A stretch of 64,000 nucleotides of DNA from Pseudomonas maumuensis (lineage in GTDB: Bacteria > Pseudomonadota > Gammaproteobacteria > Pseudomonadales > Pseudomonadaceae). The notes under the pieces are model-generated. The model had not been told where the DNA came from, searched no databases, and saw nothing but the letters and a program-made list of their open reading frames with translations. Below are positions 3 to 13,586 of the stretch, one piece after another (position 1 is the stretch's first letter; each line of letters begins with the position of its first letter). Position numbers and translations under genes: made by a program. The stretch spans positions 558,001 through 622,000 of the forward strand of contig NZ_CP077077.1 in assembly GCF_019139675.1 (NCBI RefSeq), given 5' to 3'.

Positions 3-3355
<3,353 letters not shown>

Positions 3356-3361
3356 TTTCAA

Positions 3362-3457
3362 GGAAGGCAATCGCGCCCGGTGGCGCGGCCGGGCTTCAAA
3401 CCCGGTTGGGGACGGCAGCCGTTCCCGGGCAGGTTCGACTCCCGCTGCCTTCCGCCA
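3362..3457 (+). tRNA. selC: tRNA-Sec (anticodon UCA)
   Basis: The acceptor arm pairs GGAAGGCA at 3362-3369 with TGCCTTCC at 3446-3453. That is 8 bp, as expected for selenocysteine tRNA. A discriminator G and encoded CCA follow. The anticodon arm is CCGGG-CTTCAAA-CCCGG with anticodon TCA at 3396-3398. A long variable arm and a T-loop GGTTCGACTCC are present. The length of 96 nt with CCA is typical of bacterial tRNA-Sec. Its place directly behind selB supports the call. Confidence 0.96.
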
Positions 3458-3493
3458 TTTTTCCCGGATACCAAACGCTCGCGGGCGTAACGC

Positions 3494-4483
3494 TTAAGCG
3501 CGCTCCCCGCACAGATCCAGCGCAAACCAGTGCTCTGCCGAGTCAGCGTCCAACCCCGCCCCGAGCAACGCAAACAGCTTGCCCAGCGCCGCCTCGCGGG
3601 TCATGCCGCCGCCACTGACCAGCCCGGTGTCGCGCAGGCGGCTGCCGGCGGCGTAGGTGTCGAACACCACCGAGCCTTCCGGGCATTGGCTGATGGCAAC
3701 GATCATCACGCCGCCCTGGCGGGCGTCATGCAGTGCGTCGAGCAGCGCCTGGTCATCCGACGGGCCGGTGCCGCTGCCGTAGCACTCCAGCACCAGGCCC
3801 TGGATGCCGCTGTCGAACAGGCCGCGCAGGTGTTCGGCGGCAAGGCCCGGGAACACCGGCATGACCGCCAGCTTGACCGGCTGGCGTGGCTGGCGGTAGT
3901 CCAGGCGGGTCGGCAGTTCCGCGGCGCGCTCGCCATCACGATGGCGCGGCAGCACGGTGAAGGCGTCGAACGCCTCGCTGCGCAGTTTCGAGGCGCGGCA
4001 GCCGTGCAGCAACTGGCCATGGAAATACAGCTGCACGCCGTCTTCCAGACCGTTTTCGAACAGATTGAGCGCGCCGACCAGATTGGCCCAGGCATCGCTG
4101 TCCGGCGCGCCGGCCGGCAGCATCGAGCCGGTAAGCAGCACCGGCACCGGCAGGCCCAACAGCAGGAACGACAGGGCAGCGGCGCTGTACGCCAGGGTGT
4201 CGGTGCCATGCAGCACCAGCACGCCGTCATGCCCGTCGCGTTCGACCGCCTCGACGATGGCATCGCGCATCGCCAGCCAGTTGGCCTGTTGCATGTTGGC
4301 GCTGTCGATCAGCGGATTCAGTTCACGCAGCGCCCATTGCACCTTGGGCGCATCGCCGCAGGCGGCAAAGTGTTCGCGCATGCGCGCTTCGAAGCCACCG
4401 GCCGGCGCGAGGCCTTCGGCGGTCTGCAGCATGCCGATGGTGCCACCGGTATAGAGGACGAGGAGATTCTTGACTGCACGCAT
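3494..4483 (-). CDS. ansA: Type I L-asparaginase
   Basis: Hydrolyses L-asparagine to aspartate and ammonia. The 329-residue product carries both asparaginase signatures: the N-terminal TGGTIG loop with the nucleophilic threonine (about residues 12-17) and LHGTDTLAYSA with the second catalytic Thr-Asp pair. No signal peptide is visible in the chosen form, which fits the cytoplasmic type I enzyme. I chose ATG at 4483 (MRAVKNLLVLYTGG), as it matches the family N terminus. An upstream TTG at 4522 would add 13 residues but has no ribosome binding site. The gene lies convergent to selB-selC, 36 nt from the tRNA. Confidence 0.9.
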   Translation of the reverse strand: MRAVKNLLVLYTGGTIGMLQTAEGLAPAGGFEARMREHFAACGDAPKVQWALRELNPLIDSANMQQANWLAMRDAIVEAVERDGHDGVLVLHGTDTLAYSAAALSFLLLGLPVPVLLTGSMLPAGAPDSDAWANLVGALNLFENGLEDGVQLYFHGQLLHGCRASKLRSEAFDAFTVLPRHRDGERAAELPTRLDYRQPRQPVKLAVMPVFPGLAAEHLRGLFDSGIQGLVLECYGSGTGPSDDQALLDALHDARQGGVMIVAISQCPEGSVVFDTYAAGSRLRDTGLVSGGGMTREAALGKLFALLGAGLDADSAEHWFALDLCGERA

Positions 4484-6001: not shown

Positions 6002-6182
6002 TGGAAAATGACCTCGATTCTTATTCTTCGCATGGAAAGACCAGCGGACGGCAGGCGCACCGCTATTCATTGGGGGCGCATGGTTGGCTATGACAACTGT
6101 GGTTACAATTTCGCGGGTTGCTCCATTTTGGTGCGACTTGATGCTAGAATGGCGCCACTCGCATCATCCGGACCGGCGTATC

Positions 6183-6995
6183 ATGGGCGATCACTTCGCT
6201 ATCAACCTCAAATTGGCCTGCAGCCACTACCGCTCTATCTCCGAGGTTTGCCGGCAGCTGTCGATCAACCGGGCGCAATTCAACAAGTACCTGAGCGGCC
6301 AGAGCCGTCCGACGGCCTACAACCTCAAGCGCATCGGCGACTTCTTCGGTGTGGAGGATTACGAGCTGGGCCTGCCGCCCGAGCAGTTCGCCCGTTTGAT
6401 CGGCGCACGCAACCAGGAACAGCCTGTCGGCCCACAGGACGACCCCATCAGCGAGCTGTTCAAGCCACTGCATAAAGAGGCCGGCAATCTCTCGCGCTAC
6501 TGCGGCTATTACTTCGAATACTCCAACTGCATGTCGGTGCCCGGTTCGATCCTGGTGTCGCTGGTACACCTGTGGGAGGAGCGCGGCAGTTTCCTGTTCG
6601 AGCGCCAGGAGCGCCAGGAGCGCAGCAGCGGCCTCGACCGGCATGCCGAGGTGCGCTGCCGCTACCTGGGCGCGGCGTTCCAGCTGCAGGACCGGATGTT
6701 CCTGATCGACTATGAGTCGCTGACCCTCAACGAGATGAGCCAGACCGTGCTCATCCCCAGTTTCAAGAGCCGCATCAGCCGCCTGAACGGCCTCAAGACC
6801 GGAGTCTCCAGCGGCGACCGGCGCAACCCGGCCTGCACCCGGGTGGTGTGGGAATACCTGGGCGAGGAGATCAACCGCATCAACGCCTTCCGACAGATCA
6901 AGTTGTACCGCCCGGACGATCCGCGCATCGACGACGATATCCGTGATCGGCTGAGCGCGGGGATGGTCAGCAACGGGTTGTTCGAGATCGAGTGA
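6183..6995 (+). CDS. Helix-turn-helix (XRE-like) transcriptional regulator
   Basis: A 270-residue DNA-binding protein. A Cro/CI-type HTH occupies about residues 15-60 (ISEVCRQLSINRAQFNKYLSG, then RPTAYNLKRIGDFF). A large C-terminal domain of unknown ligand follows. I used ATG at 6183 (MGDHFAINLKL). An ATG at 6084 opens the frame earlier but would add 33 residues from the promoter region. The gene is divergent from the AGCS symporter, and the shared 181-nt gap suggests it may regulate that transporter. This is context only. No enzymatic motif is seen. Confidence 0.8.
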   Translation: MGDHFAINLKLACSHYRSISEVCRQLSINRAQFNKYLSGQSRPTAYNLKRIGDFFGVEDYELGLPPEQFARLIGARNQEQPVGPQDDPISELFKPLHKEAGNLSRYCGYYFEYSNCMSVPGSILVSLVHLWEERGSFLFERQERQERSSGLDRHAEVRCRYLGAAFQLQDRMFLIDYESLTLNEMSQTVLIPSFKSRISRLNGLKTGVSSGDRRNPACTRVVWEYLGEEINRINAFRQIKLYRPDDPRIDDDIRDRLSAGMVSNGLFEIE

Positions 6996-7955: not shown

Positions 7956-8150
7956 CAACTCCTCCCAAGCGGTTTTAGCGCGTCTCCGAGGCTCATAAGC
8001 ATGAGGGGTGAGCCTGGGCGCATCAAGTTTTCGCAGTGTCCATTCTTTGAAGACTAATGGGTAGTGTCTTTCCTACTGGAGTGGATGGGTTTTCTGTTAT
8101 GGGCAGGAGCCTCTTCCTCGGGCTCAGGCATTGTGCTGAGAAACAGGCGC

Positions 8151-8180
8151 TATAAAATCGAATGCGAACGTTAGACGTTC
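8151..8180 (+). promoter_or_regulatory. Putative promoter -10 and leader palindrome of the peptide-nucleotide cassette
   Basis: The 244-nt gap at 7956-8199 is AT-rich and holds no other gene. TATAAA at 8151-8156 could be a -10 box; no good -35 is evident at 17 nt. A perfect 6-bp palindrome with a 3-nt loop, GAACGT-TAG-ACGTTC, lies at 8166-8180 and is followed by TTTT. It could be an operator or a small attenuator. The ribosome binding site AAGGAG lies 7 nt before the ATG at 8200. Confidence 0.4.
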
Positions 8181-8199
8181 TTTTATAAGGAGATAGTAG

Positions 8200-8385
8200 A
8201 TGTATAACGTCTTTGGAGTTGCCGCGGTATTAATGCTTGGCGTATCGGTCGCCGAAGCTTCTGTCAGTCACACTAAGGAGCCTTTGTTGTTGACCAGCAA
8301 GGAGCAGCCATCCGTACCGCCTACGATAGTTTTGGCCAGCTGCAGTGGCACCCATGCCCGAATGCTGCCGCGTTGCCATAACTGA
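8200..8385 (+). CDS. Candidate precursor peptide of a microcin C-like peptide-nucleotide
   Basis: A small ORF of 61 residues with a strong AAGGAG site 7 nt before the ATG. The first 20 residues are hydrophobic and end in an AEA-S pattern resembling a signal peptidase site, although the N terminus lacks positive charges. The last residues are ARMLPRCHN, so the C terminus is asparagine. In microcin C systems MccB adenylates the C-terminal Asn of MccA, and an MccB-like gene starts 53 nt downstream. Extended MccA precursors trimmed by proteases are known in other bacteria. The alternative is a small secreted protein unrelated to the E1 enzyme, or a shorter product from the internal ATG at 8362. 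The codon composition is AT-richer than the neighbours. Function is inferred from context and the C-terminal Asn. Confidence 0.6.
   Translation: MYNVFGVAAVLMLGVSVAEASVSHTKEPLLLTSKEQPSVPPTIVLASCSGTHARMLPRCHN
8362..8385 (+). CDS. Nested heptapeptide MLPRCHN, MccA-like
   Basis: The last seven codons of the small ORF read ATG ... AAC TGA and encode MLPRCHN. E. coli MccA is MRTGNAN and the Helicobacter version is MKLSYRN; all are seven residues beginning with Met and ending in Asn. No convincing ribosome binding site precedes this ATG, so the heptapeptide may instead be released from the 61-residue protein by proteolysis. It is a candidate core peptide, not an established gene. Confidence 0.45.
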   Translation: MLPRCHN

Positions 8386-8392
8386 GTGCGTT

Positions 8393-8416
8393 GGGCTGGA
8401 GAGATATCTCCAGCCC
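8393..8416 (+). terminator. Hairpin between precursor and MccB-like gene
   Basis: A perfect 10-bp stem (GGGCTGGAGA / TCTCCAGCCC) with a GATA loop, starting 7 nt after the precursor stop. No U-run follows, so it may act as an mRNA-stabilising or partial-termination structure. In the E. coli mcc operon a terminator-like hairpin between mccA and mccB keeps the short transcript in excess. Confidence 0.65.
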
Positions 8417-8438
8417 ACATTACGGAAGAAAGTAAGTG

Positions 8439-9380
8439 ATGGATGACTTGATCTATTATTGCGGTAAAGTGCCCGCCGGCGTTATCGCGCCCTCTACGGC
8501 TTATGCATTTGATGGCGCGCGTGTCCTGATCGATGGGCCCGAGGGTATTACCTCTGCCGATCGAAACGACGAGCGTGAACTACGCCAGGCACTCCAGGCC
8601 TCGGGCGCTTTGGTGGTGGGTTCCGCGCAAGAGGTGGGAAACGTGATCGCCTTGCTCAGTGCGCCGCAGAGCAGTCGAACGGCCAGTTATCTGCTGTGCT
8701 CCGCGTCCCAGTGCGCACAGGTCATTGGCGACCTGCGCACGCTGAGCGCCGCTCGGATCATGGTAGTGGGGTGCGGTGGTATCGGCAGTTCGCTATGCAT
8801 GCTGTTGGCGGGTGTCGGAGTGCGAAATTTTATATTGGTCGATGCGGATACGATCGAGCAGAGCAATCTTAATCGGCAATTTTTCTGGACATTGGCAGAT
8901 ATCGGTCGCAGCAAGGTAACGGTGCTGAAGGCTGCGCTCGAGGCCAGGTTCGAGAGTATGCAGATAGAGTGCCTCTGCGCTCAACCCGGCATTGCTGACC
9001 TCATCGCCTTGAGCTGCGGTAATGTCGATGCTGTTGCCGTGACGGCGGATAATCCGCCCACCTTGGCGAGGGACAGTTGGGAAATCGCCGAGCGCTGTAA
9101 TATTCCGGTCGTTGCGGGTGGCTACCTGCATCACAGGTGTAGTGCATTTTGCTTTATACCGGATGACTGTGCAGAAGTGGAAAGTTCCAGAAAGTTGTTT
9201 GAGGAAACTTACGCAGGCTTGCCCAGTGCCATTATGCCGAGTTATGGGCCAATGAATGTTTCACTTGCGGCTGTCTTGGCAACCCAGATGATTATGGCGC
9301 TTGCAACGTTAACGTTTGGACTGCCCAGGACACGTGTCGATACCTGGGATTCCCGAGGAGAACATGGCTTTGACTGCTAA
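8439..9380 (+). CDS. MccB-like ThiF/E1-family peptide adenylyltransferase
   Basis: A 313-residue Rossmann-fold E1-like protein. Residues 1-100 form a variable N-terminal domain, where MccB holds its precursor-peptide clamp. The ATP site is VVGCGGIGSS (about 109-118). VDAD (134-137), SNLNRQ with the conserved Arg (142-147) and GRSK (156-159) follow, then TADN (202-205), whose Asp matches the catalytic Asp of MccB. The region after it (WEIAERCNIPVVAGGYLHH) is also MccB-like. The two CxxC zinc pairs of ThiF/MccB are not visible: only single cysteines remain near 244 and at the last residue. It is shorter than the roughly 350 residues of MccB. ATG at 8439 follows GGAAG/GAAAG; a GTG one codon upstream is possible. 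Its 3' end overlaps the HIT gene. ThiF-type sulfur transfer is a less likely role. Confidence 0.75.
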   Translation: MDDLIYYCGKVPAGVIAPSTAYAFDGARVLIDGPEGITSADRNDERELRQALQASGALVVGSAQEVGNVIALLSAPQSSRTASYLLCSASQCAQVIGDLRTLSAARIMVVGCGGIGSSLCMLLAGVGVRNFILVDADTIEQSNLNRQFFWTLADIGRSKVTVLKAALEARFESMQIECLCAQPGIADLIALSCGNVDAVAVTADNPPTLARDSWEIAERCNIPVVAGGYLHHRCSAFCFIPDDCAEVESSRKLFEETYAGLPSAIMPSYGPMNVSLAAVLATQMIMALATLTFGLPRTRVDTWDSRGEHGFDC

Positions 9381-9891
9381 CGTAACGCCTGGGGCAGATA
9401 TGTGCATTTTTTGCGATATCGGCTGTGGCCATGAACCCGCTCATATTTTTTGGCAGAGTGAAACGCATATGGCTTTTCTGTCGATCTTTCCTAATACGCC
9501 AGGGGTGACGGTGGTCATTCCGAAGCGGCACTACTGCAGTTATGCATTCGATCAGGACGATCATGTGCTTGCCGGGCTGATGGTTGCGGCCAAGGAGGTG
9601 GCCCGCTTGCTCGACTCGGCCTTGAAAGATGTCGGCAGGACAGCAATGGTGCTCGAGGGGTATGGCATAGATCATCTGCATGCCAAGTTGTTTCCCCTGC
9701 ATGGCACAGGTGAAAGTAGTGCGTTCAGAACCATCTCATCGGATAGACACGACTACTTCGATCGCTATGAAGGCTATGTCTCCTCGCATGATTGTCGCCG
9801 GGCGGATGATCGACAGCTCGCCTCCTTGGCGTGGCGGCTCGCGAAGGCGGGCGGCAACGGGGGGACTGGTAAGAGCATCAAGACGTCCTGA
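9364..9891 (+). CDS. HIT-family hydrolase, possible self-immunity protein
   Basis: A 175-residue histidine-triad protein. CIFC lies at about residues 14-17 and VVIPKRHY at about 50-57. The active-site motif HLHAKLF lies at about 104-110. The middle (nucleophilic) His is kept, but the third His of the usual HxHxH is Lys. ATG at 9364 follows GAGGAG and overlaps the MccB-like gene by 17 nt, implying co-translation. HIT enzymes cleave nucleotide phosphoramidates. A HIT hydrolase (MccH) is reported to protect Hyalangium minutum against its microcin C-like compound, so an immunity role is attractive. A generic nucleotide hydrolase or a maturation role cannot be excluded. Confidence 0.75.
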   Translation: MALTANVTPGADMCIFCDIGCGHEPAHIFWQSETHMAFLSIFPNTPGVTVVIPKRHYCSYAFDQDDHVLAGLMVAAKEVARLLDSALKDVGRTAMVLEGYGIDHLHAKLFPLHGTGESSAFRTISSDRHDYFDRYEGYVSSHDCRRADDRQLASLAWRLAKAGGNGGTGKSIKTS

Positions 9892-9921
9892 TGTTGGACT
9901 TGGCCGGCCCATGTTGGACTT
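9891..9921. repeat. Short direct repeat at the right edge of the cassette
   Basis: ATGTTGGACTT occurs at 9891-9901 and again at 9911-9921, 20 nt apart. The first copy overlaps the HIT stop codon. It may mark the junction where the AT-richer cassette meets host-like sequence, or be chance. Confidence 0.5.
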
Positions 9922-11826: not shown

Positions 11827-12264
11827 CTAATGCCGGATCAGCTGTCGCCGGCAATCCTCCGGCCCCACCACTCGCCCATCTCGGGCCCGCACCTGTAACG
11901 TCTCCAGCCCCTGGCCGCGATCATCGACCAACTGCGAGCGTGATTCCCCCGGCCTGAACAGGTACCGCTCCCCCCATTGGCGCAAGCCGATCACGATCGG
12001 AAACACCGAACGGCCCTTTTCCGTCAGCACATATTCCTTGTAGGCACTGCCATCGGATGCAGGCTGCTGTGCCAGCAGCCCGGCCTCCACCAGCAGTTTC
12101 AGGCGCGAAGCGAGGATGTTCTTCGCCAGCCCGAGGTTTTTCTGCAATTCGCTGAAGCGGCACGGGCCATCGAAGGCATCGCGCAGGATCATCAGCGCCC
12201 AGCGCTCGCCGAGGACTTCCAGGGCGCGGGCCACTGGGCATTGCTGGTTGTTCTCGTCGAGCAT
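11827..12264 (-). CDS. HxlR-family winged-helix regulator
   Basis: A 145-residue transcription factor. CPVARALEVLGERWALMILRDAF (about residues 9-31), then RFSELQKNLGLAKNILASRL and EYVLTEKGR, are hallmark HxlR segments, and the first carries the conserved N-terminal Cys. ATG at 12264 follows AAGGA. An upstream frame extension to 12306 runs into the operator. It is divergent from an MFS exporter gene, and the shared gap holds a long inverted repeat, so it probably represses that transporter and itself. The inducer is unknown. Confidence 0.9.
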   Translation of the reverse strand: MLDENNQQCPVARALEVLGERWALMILRDAFDGPCRFSELQKNLGLAKNILASRLKLLVEAGLLAQQPASDGSAYKEYVLTEKGRSVFPIVIGLRQWGERYLFRPGESRSQLVDDRGQGLETLQVRARDGRVVGPEDCRRQLIRH

Positions 12265-12297
12265 GAGGCGTTCCTTGGCTGTGATCTGGTTGCAGAA

Positions 12298-12336
12298 TAA
12301 AACCATGTTTGCTAGAAATCCAGTTTCATGGTTTTA
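12298..12336. promoter_or_regulatory. Inverted-repeat operator between hxlR-type regulator and MFS gene
   Basis: TAAAACCATG at 12298-12307 is an exact inverted copy of CATGGTTTTA at 12327-12336. A related GAAACCAGTTTT lies just downstream. It is centred in the 101-nt divergent gap, which fits an HxlR dimer-binding site overlapping both promoters. Confidence 0.6.
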
Positions 12337-12365
12337 AATTGAAACCAGTTTTGGAGGGATTGCCG

Positions 12366-13586
12366 ATGCCACCGCTCACCCGCGGATTGACGCTGTTGTT
12401 GGCTGCCGCCTGCGCCCTGGCCGTTGCCACGGTGTACCTCGCCCAGCCGCTGCTGGAGGCCATGGCCGCGAGCCTCGGCGTAAGCGCTGCGCGCGCCGGC
12501 CTGGTGGTGGGCATGACCCAGGCAGGCTATGCCTTGGGTCTGTTGCTGATCGTGCCGCTGGGCGACCTGGTCGATCGTCGGCGGCTGATTGTCGGCCAGT
12601 TGCTGGCATCGGCTGGCGCGCTGTTTGCCGTGGCGTTTGCCGTGGAATGGGCCATGTTGCTGGCGGCGATGGCCATGGTCGGCCTGGCTGCGGTGGTGGT
12701 GCAGGTGATGGTCGCGCATGCCGCCACACTGTCCACGCCAGCCCAGCAGGGGCAGGCGGTGGGGACTGTCACCAGTGGCGTGGTGCTGGGCATTCTGTCA
12801 GCGCGCTTGGTTTCTGGCGCATTGGCTGACCTGCTGGGCTGGCACGGCGTGTACGTCGTGGCGGCGGGGCTGGCGTTGGCCATGGCGTTGTTGCTGGCCT
12901 GGCGCTTGCCTGCTGTCAGGCCGCAGGGGCCGAGGCAGCGCTATCGGGCACTGCTGGTCTCAGTGCTGCGCTTGTACCGGCATGACCGTCTGCTACGTCA
13001 GCGCGGTGTGTTTGCGGTGCTGATCTTCGCGGCGTTCAGCGTGCTGTGGAGCGCGATGGTGTTGCCCCTGAGCGCCCCGCCGCTGGCGCTCGATCACACC
13101 CAGGTCGGGTTGTTAGGCCTGGCCGGGGTGGCTGGCGCGCTGGCGGCTTCGCGTGCCGGGCGCCTGGCAGATCAGGGGCAGGGCCGGCGGGTGAGCGGCT
13201 GGGCCCTGGGGCTGTTGACGCTGTCATGGCTGCCCAGCGCCTACCTCGAGCAGTCATTGCTGGCGCTGGTGATCGGCGTACTGATGCTGGACCTGGCCGT
13301 GCAGGCCGTGCATGTGACCAACCAGAGCCTGTTGCTGGCGGGGCGTGGCGAGATGGCCGGCCGGCTGATCGGCGCCTACATGTGTTGCTATTCAGTGGGT
13401 AGCGGGGTGGGTGCGGTCGTGGCGACCTGGGTGTACGGCAAGTGGGGCTGGGTGGCGGTGTGCGGGCTGGGGGCGGGGATAAGCGCGGTTGCCTGGGGCT
13501 ACTGGGGATATCTCTGGTGGGCCGAGGTGAAGCGGAGCAAGCCCGCTCCAGAAGGAACGGGCTTGGCTGCGGATCAGAACTTGTAG
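12366..13586 (+). CDS. MFS transporter (drug/metabolite exporter type)
   Basis: A 406-residue inner-membrane protein with about 12 hydrophobic segments. After helix 2 it has the MFS motif-A-like stretch LGDLVDRRRLI at about residues 65-75. Near the start it carries VYLAQPLLEAMAASLGVS, typical of DHA1-type exporters. ATG at 12366 follows GGAGGG. It is divergent from the HxlR regulator, so it is likely induced by a small molecule that this regulator senses. It ends 13 nt inside the convergent oprG gene. It is 2.5 kb from the MccB-like cassette and has its own regulator, so there is no reason to assign it as that cassette's exporter. Confidence 0.88.
   Translation: MPPLTRGLTLLLAAACALAVATVYLAQPLLEAMAASLGVSAARAGLVVGMTQAGYALGLLLIVPLGDLVDRRRLIVGQLLASAGALFAVAFAVEWAMLLAAMAMVGLAAVVVQVMVAHAATLSTPAQQGQAVGTVTSGVVLGILSARLVSGALADLLGWHGVYVVAAGLALAMALLLAWRLPAVRPQGPRQRYRALLVSVLRLYRHDRLLRQRGVFAVLIFAAFSVLWSAMVLPLSAPPLALDHTQVGLLGLAGVAGALAASRAGRLADQGQGRRVSGWALGLLTLSWLPSAYLEQSLLALVIGVLMLDLAVQAVHVTNQSLLLAGRGEMAGRLIGAYMCCYSVGSGVGAVVATWVYGKWGWVAVCGLGAGISAVAWGYWGYLWWAEVKRSKPAPEGTGLAADQNL

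Follow-up and report, generated by a model that had tools for sequence, protein, structure and literature searches.

The window analysed here, which is the full stretch of 64,000 nucleotides (nt) of Pseudomonas maumuensis and not the cassette alone, was found to contain a compact microcin C-like cassette on the + strand, composed of an Asn-ending small open reading frame (ORF), a hairpin, an MccB-like E1 gene and a HIT gene, all present in the order given in a preliminary description of this DNA. The precursor peptide gene (8200..8385, + strand) encodes an MccA-like peptide of 61 amino acids (aa) ending in ...MLPRCHN, is preceded by AAGGAGATAG and was found to have no match in Pfam. It is followed by an intercistronic hairpin with an 11-bp perfect stem and a 4-nt loop (8392..8417, + strand; inverted repeat 8392-8402/8407-8417) and by the gene of a predicted MccB-like E1 nucleotidyltransferase of 313 aa (8439..9380, + strand) with an N-terminal clamp-like domain at about aa 1-75. 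The E1 gene starts with the ATG at 8439, the GTG at 8436 being likewise in frame, and its stop codon ends at 9380. The HIT gene (9364..9891, + strand) encodes a predicted MccH-type phosphoramidase with the sequence EGYGIDHLHAK, a signature taken from PMC7157772, and its ATG overlaps the E1 stop by 17 nt. A start at the second in-frame ATG at 9400 (MCIFCDI), to which several relatives' HIT starts are similar, would leave no overlap. The overlap and the motifs GCGGIG (aa 111-116), SNLNRQ (aa 142-147) and TADN (aa 202-205) of the E1 enzyme, all noted in the preliminary description, were confirmed. Pfam assigned the E1 protein to PF00899 ThiF (1e-31) and the HIT protein to PF01230 (4e-7). We consider it likely that the three genes form a self-contained cassette of the ribosomally synthesized and post-translationally modified peptide (RiPP) type, making and tolerating a Sec-routed microcin C-type peptidyl-nucleotide. 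The microcin C-like character, already proposed earlier, is supported. What the data show directly is which genes are present, how far they are conserved, the signature of the HIT protein, and the fold predicted for E1 together with its diagnostic residues, whereas the chemistry, the Sec export, the disulfide, the target and the antibiotic role are inferred.

Beyond the preliminary description, the small ORF was found to contain a Sec-like signal peptide and a conserved Cys pair. The signal-like leader MYNVFGVAAVLMLGVSVAEA occupies residues 1-20 (8200..8259, + strand), with cleavage predicted by eye after AEA and the positions given by the crude scan itself being mostly earlier, followed by a 41-residue mature part ending in Cys48...Cys59-His-Asn61. 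The core from Cys48 to Asn61 (8341..8382, + strand) was read from an alignment of 14 precursors, and Asn61 is the predicted nucleotide acceptor. The post-cleavage stretch KE[PA]..LT[ST]K[EK]Q (about 8272-8310) was common to the precursors of the window, L031 and L032, which are the closest three, and may be an E1 recognition motif.

The E1 family was compared at 17 loci. Besides the window, these were every one of the seven loci from the genome-contig search and the nine further matches at <=1e-25 (G029, G099, G067, G049, G205, G247, G022, G678 and G824), with G127 and G809 being the contigs of L031 and L036, respectively. Their hosts were Pseudomonas, Variovorax, Xylophilus, Methylophaga and two further genomes of the same order. 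At 14 of the 17 loci, E1 was found to have upstream, on its own strand, an ORF of 57-94 aa that starts with a hydrophobic signal-like stretch and ends in C.?N. A HIT gene was found at 16 loci, and the block which the preliminary description had proposed to look for in other genomes is thus present elsewhere in diverged form. In the alignment of the 14 precursors, the last Cys and the Asn were invariant, and the first Cys was found in a column conserved to at least 90%. Among 33 control loci of other ThiF-family proteins (29 generic and 4 other), none of the 38 upstream ORFs was of this kind, with shorter upstream DNA covered at two of them (L029 and L044), which begin near a contig end.

Among 1668 ORFs of 40-110 aa from the window and 14 other long loci, 18 were found to end in C.?N, of which 13 were precursors. 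The crude signal peptide was present in all 13 and in none of the remaining five, and since the pairing of this ending with a signal is confined to precursors, the cassette precursor is more than a chance ORF. The crude scan, based on hydrophobicity and the -3/-1 positions, was positive in 14/14 precursors against 161/1668 background ORFs, the latter set including 13 of the precursors. When 5.8 billion proteins were searched with a profile, 15 precursor homologues were obtained; all 11 sequences inspected end in CN, and the other four were equated with precursors already inspected, P0153 by identity and P0148, P0149 and P0157 by their length and that of the contig. In four groups of close homologues, the conservation of the core (Cys to Asn) and of the spacer was 0.83/0.76, 0.86/0.66, 0.78/0.19 and 0.76/0.53, respectively. 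A precursor rule of signal peptide plus Cys-x(n)-Cys-x(0,1)-Asn would describe these peptides.

Compared with dinucleotide-shuffled versions of its intergenic stretch, the hairpin between precursor and E1 of the window had a z-score of -4.9, with no T run after the stem, and 10 of the 14 corresponding stretches had a z-score of -2.3 or lower. In the E. coli cluster, a terminator hairpin is described between mccA and mccB (PMC6495379). The terminator scan found two sites against 1.6 expected, neither of them being the hairpin at 8392..8417, and the promoter scan found none.

The E1 enzyme and the predicted immunity genes

The best PDB sequence match of the E1 protein was E. coli MccB (6e-15). 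In Foldseek, with the AlphaFold2 model of E1 as the query, rows 1-24 were MccB chains (8e-19 to 7e-16), followed by the families PaaA (4e-13) and MoeB (9e-13). The alignment with MccB was found to cover 277-284 of the 313 residues from residue 12 onwards, thereby including the clamp domain, whereas the alignment with MoeB and ThiF starts only at residue 71 or 72. AclA (PDB 9egb) was among the matches of both fold searches, and a literature search on AclA gave nothing relevant.

The residues I115, R170, A203, P206, G228, Y229 and N273, whose MccB counterparts are I126, R181, A213, P216, G238, Y239 and N295, respectively, were kept in 23-25 of 25 members of the E1 family and in 18-21 of 21 MccB rows, against 0-1 of 29 generic ThiF/MoeB rows. 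In the tree, of which the root was not placed, the E1 family forms a separate group on a branch of 100/100, outside the MccB clade and apart from ThiF/MoeB. Of the two outcomes which the preliminary description had named as damaging, a grouping of E1 with ThiF/MoeB was not observed, and loci without an intact Asn-ending precursor were a minority (3/17). The E1 family would be an MccB-like sister group without the Cys pairs of MccB. Another ThiF protein of the same genus (L018 in G051; 325 aa), with an N-terminal extension, was placed by a quick tree on a very long branch near the E1 family.

The signature ExxxxxHxHxK was present in all 16 HIT proteins of the loci. It is described as the signature of the MccH clade, with the Lys being required (PMC7157772). 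The position of the N-terminal conserved His, at which the MccH clade has Phe, was, as read by eye, occupied by Phe in 10 of the 16 and by Val or Ala in five (Val in the window), with one not read. In 12 relatives, 27 loci with a HIT domain were compared; HxHxH was found at 11 of them and HxHxK at two, whereas at 14 no triad was recognised by the pattern. One of the two HxHxK loci was the window's own and the other was found in G004. The latter, L102 (G004:C25:38871-39140), encodes a HIT protein that contains LEGYGVDHLHAK; its genome lacks the E1 family, and the locus resembles the published stand-alone MccH genes.

The 17th locus, G049, was found to contain a Peptidase_S51 gene directly 3' of E1 (PF03575, 3e-42), and S51 proteins are demonstrated immunity enzymes against microcin C under the name MccG (PMC9239234). 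According to Pfam, the homologue P0036 (505 aa) is a fusion of E1 with a GNAT domain, and this domain showed 37% identity over 156 aa to the C-terminal part (residues 433-588 of 589) of the GNAT protein encoded in the mcc operon of E. coli, called MccE by operon order. Three microcin C immunity chemistries (HIT with Lys, S51 and MccE-like GNAT) thus appear to go with one E1 family, and three enzymes against one warhead beside one E1 family are the strongest functional argument for the reading.

An ordinary ThiF/MoeB cofactor enzyme, with a small ORF of no relation to it and a housekeeping protein of the HinT type as neighbours, would fit the names given by Pfam and NCBIfam, which are ThiF-family and HIT only, and the best NCBIfam rows for E1, which are ThiF/MoeB and every one under its cut-off. 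This explanation is extremely improbable given the separate group in the tree, the extra N-terminal domain, the lost Cys pairs, the conserved precursor and the HxHxK triad, compared with the HxHxH of 11/27 HIT loci in relatives; a housekeeping ThiF/MoeB enzyme was rejected on the diagnostic residues and the tree position. The PADLOC matches (E1 to E1-E2 defence models and HIT to ThsC2) were set aside as well, reflecting only the shared ThiF/HIT domains while the gene content differs.

PaaA, the next Foldseek family, aligns over 267 residues and, like MccB, from residue 12. Its chemistry differs from that of MccB and is said to consist of a ring closure or bicycle on its substrate. Together with the two conserved Cys beside the Asn, which are unlike the heptapeptide precursors, this alignment leaves some room for an E1 whose activation of the C-terminus leads to a different end reaction, such as a ring closure or bicycle, with the HIT protein only clearing adenylated by-products and the secreted Cys-Asn peptide being a signal or metal-binding peptide rather than a Trojan-horse antibiotic. 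We regard this as unlikely, as three classes of enzymes that destroy or mask the warhead accompany the family and the terminal Asn does not vary among the precursors.

Distribution, divergence and mobility of the cassette

The genus search found the E1 family in 9/398 genomes at 1e-40, and 49 metagenome protein homologues, without gene context, were found at 1e-3. The GC content of the three cassette genes was 54-56% against 65% for the window. In the related genome G015, the neighbouring genes were present and the site was empty, the missing span being approximately 7960..9911 (strand not applicable). Homology to L075 ends by the start of the abhydrolase gene and restarts at window position 9913, and opposite-strand TauE- and TauD-type genes were found at the same chromosomal site in L074 (G007; 1893-3784). 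The gap between the abhydrolase and RmlD genes looks like a site at which insertions vary. Of the flanking genes, HTH (6084-6992), abhydrolase and RmlD were not accepted as parts of the cassette, homologous DNA being present in G007 and G015 without it.

A same-site cassette was found in P. entomophila COR5, with protein identities of 46% for the precursor, 57% for E1 and 68% for HIT. Since the three flanking proteins were 86-96% identical between the two genomes, the cassette would be either exchanged or fast-diversifying. The flanking genes vary between loci, the window/COR5 pair excepted, and the cassette genes therefore travel alone. Six phage records and 379 plasmid records matched, none of either over 80% of the query, and neither phage nor plasmid carriage was thus found among them.

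At the reversed locus of G022 (L067, 9386-10203), only the C-terminal third of E1 is in frame while HIT is open, as if immunity outlasted production. This locus, together with the in-frame stop in the Xylophilus precursor frame, would be expected if the cassette were a decayed relic from which nothing is made any longer. For the window, such decay is very unlikely, as its three genes are open, its E1 retains the invariant residues of the family alignment and strongly diverged cassette alleles elsewhere stay open.

Export and the points against the reading

A minimal mcc set is described as precursor, MccB and exporter (PMC9239234). Transport genes were seen near some other loci: G678 has an ABC ATPase gene upstream, G205 a sulfate permease gene downstream and G067 an opposite-strand ShlB gene upstream. 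Farther out, G099 has an MFS gene and L035 an AcrB-type gene on the opposite strand. In the window, an HxlR-type regulator and a divergent MFS transporter gene span 11830-13583, and neither was found at the corresponding position in the gene list of P. entomophila COR5, which has a different gene there.

Several observations weigh against the reading as a Sec-routed microcin C-type cassette, and the first of them concern export. Pfam found no exporter adjoining E1 or HIT among three flanking genes of the window, and none belonging to a cassette in a scan of 12 other loci that covered 19 flanking genes, namely 18 from a list of 85 for these loci and one more. Downstream of HIT, 2.4 kb with an RmlD gene, an epimerase-like gene and the opposite-strand HxlR gene separate the cassette from an MFS gene (12309-13583). 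Because of this nearby gene, the favoured reading and that of a distinct antibiotic class were rated marginally lower and export by a pump marginally higher. There is no explanation of how the E1 enzyme would act on a Sec substrate ahead of its export, and no route from the periplasm to the outside is known.

Further points concern the precursor and its surroundings. No intact precursor was found at 3/17 loci (G247, G022 and Xylophilus); the upstream candidate frame of Xylophilus (L035) was found to contain an in-frame stop and a Val-Asn end without Cys. In G247 (L066, 8470-11856), the order was HIT, E1 and a 604-aa GATase + Asn_synthase protein, with no recognisable Asn-ending precursor, and this version perhaps acts on another substrate. 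No significant hairpin was found in the precursor-E1 stretches of L061, L063, L064 and L068. The class search gave matches in 11/369 genomes at 1e-25, with only the window's own (439 bits) at family level and the other ten (90-97 bits, catalytic part only) taken as generic ThiF/MoeB, and the single match of the phylum search (1/398 at 1e-35) was the window's own, so that by these sequence counts the E1 family is rare outside Pseudomonas.

The remaining points concern the E1 enzyme. The preliminary description had proposed a structural comparison with MccB with the clamp included, and a likeness was borne out by the Foldseek order and the alignment from residue 12 but not by VIA-align, whose Z-scores for MoeB (24.2), ThiF (23.7) and MccB (23.9) amount to a tie. 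The sequence-profile comparison of E1 with MccB was limited to the catalytic domain (columns 79-295), and the two CxxC pairs, invariant in 21/21 MccB rows, were found in 0/25 members of the E1 family.

The microcin C chemistry could also hold with the hydrophobic N-terminus serving only as an E1 leader or membrane anchor, and with a pump encoded nearby or elsewhere carrying out the export. In two of the four precursor groups (94% identity, B and C), conservation is highest in the leader, work on bufferins reports preliminary results according to which a signal peptide is involved in recognition by the enzyme (PMC12452194), and the MFS gene mentioned above is at hand, COR5 having a different gene at that position. 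The crude signal-peptide scan, positive for every precursor, and the lack of a cassette exporter in the scanned flanks argue against such a pump, and the window MFS gives a best E-value of only 1.3, which is not meaningful, with the E. coli mcc MFS protein, stands beside HxlR and is only 41-54% identical to its matches in three relatives. The gene was not counted as a cassette part, and we hold export by a pump to be improbable. Under the favoured, Sec-routed reading, the export route would be offered by the signal peptide of the precursor. Sec signals are described as rare in RiPPs, with bufferins being the tested case (PMC12452194).

Known systems and the proposed product

The E. coli mccABCDEF cluster (L049, plasmid pL25922_1; letters by operon order) resembles the cassette in its Asn-ending precursor, the hairpin before B, the clamp-bearing ThiF-type B enzyme and the linked immunity. 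Its precursor is a heptapeptide, whereas that of the window contains 61 aa, a Sec-like signal peptide and a Cys pair, and the cassette contains no MFS pump and no MccD/MccE, with HIT in place of MccE/MccF and an E1 without the two Cys pairs. The mcc precursors listed in PMC6495379 have 7-8 or 17-56 aa. The mcc cluster of Hyalangium minutum (PMC7157772) is similar in its MccA-MccB-MccH content, long Asn-ending precursors and ExxxxxHxHxK HIT, and different in its three transporter genes and two A-B pairs; its precursors, as given in that source, are of 36 and 46 aa with no signal peptide seen by eye. Putative Pseudomonas mcc-like clusters with MccH are mentioned there in one clause; they share the genus and the HIT type and may include the cassette's own family, and the text consulted names no precursor, gene order or leader for them.

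The Nocardia vaccinii cluster with MccG (PMC9239234) resembles locus G049 in having an S51 peptidase gene beside an MccB-like gene, and differs from the cassette in its bifunctional cytidylating MccB, 21-aa precursor and pump gene. Bufferins (PMC12452194) are likewise modified inside the producer before Sec export and have a Cys-containing precursor, but depend on MNIO enzymes and DUF2063 partners, bind copper and carry no nucleotide. PaaA (PDB 5ff5) has a ThiF fold that aligns over the N-terminal domain too and ranks below MccB in Foldseek. In the open PMC literature, subscription papers and supplements being outside its scope, we found no microcin C precursor described as being of the Sec type or as ending in Cys-Asn, and no paper that combined 'McC-like' with 'signal peptide'.

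In the proposed pathway, the 61-aa precursor would be made with its N-terminal signal peptide, followed by its binding in the cytoplasm through the N-terminal clamp of E1, which would activate the C-terminal Asn with ATP and add a nucleotide through a P-N bond in the manner of MccB. AMP without aminopropyl is the most likely nucleotide, because the cassette contains no MccD/MccE-like gene and because the published MccH cleaves the aspartamide-adenylate and not its aminopropylated form (PMC7157772). The modified precursor would then exit via Sec with removal of the signal peptide, and a disulfide next to the C-terminal warhead would probably link the two conserved Cys. Warhead freed inside the producer would be inactivated by the HIT protein through cleavage of its P-N bond.

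The balance tilts modestly towards a distinct class of Sec-exported, disulfide-looped peptide-nucleotide antibiotics, characterised by a Cys-Asn or Cys-x-Asn end carrying the warhead, a Sec signal replacing the pump, a sister family of MccB without the Cys pairs, a three-gene mobile cassette, and a precursor and enzyme far more diverged between sister species than their flanks. If the reading is true, the cassette would be a pump-free three-gene version compared with the published minimum of precursor, MccB and exporter (PMC9239234), and would show how Sec can be traversed by a peptide with a nucleotide on its C-terminus, adding to the bufferins a second case where modification in the cytoplasm has to come before Sec export. 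It would also provide a compact system for heterologous production and a new precursor rule usable for genome mining, and would extend the Trojan-horse antibiotics to Pseudomonas, some other Gammaproteobacteria and Burkholderiales.

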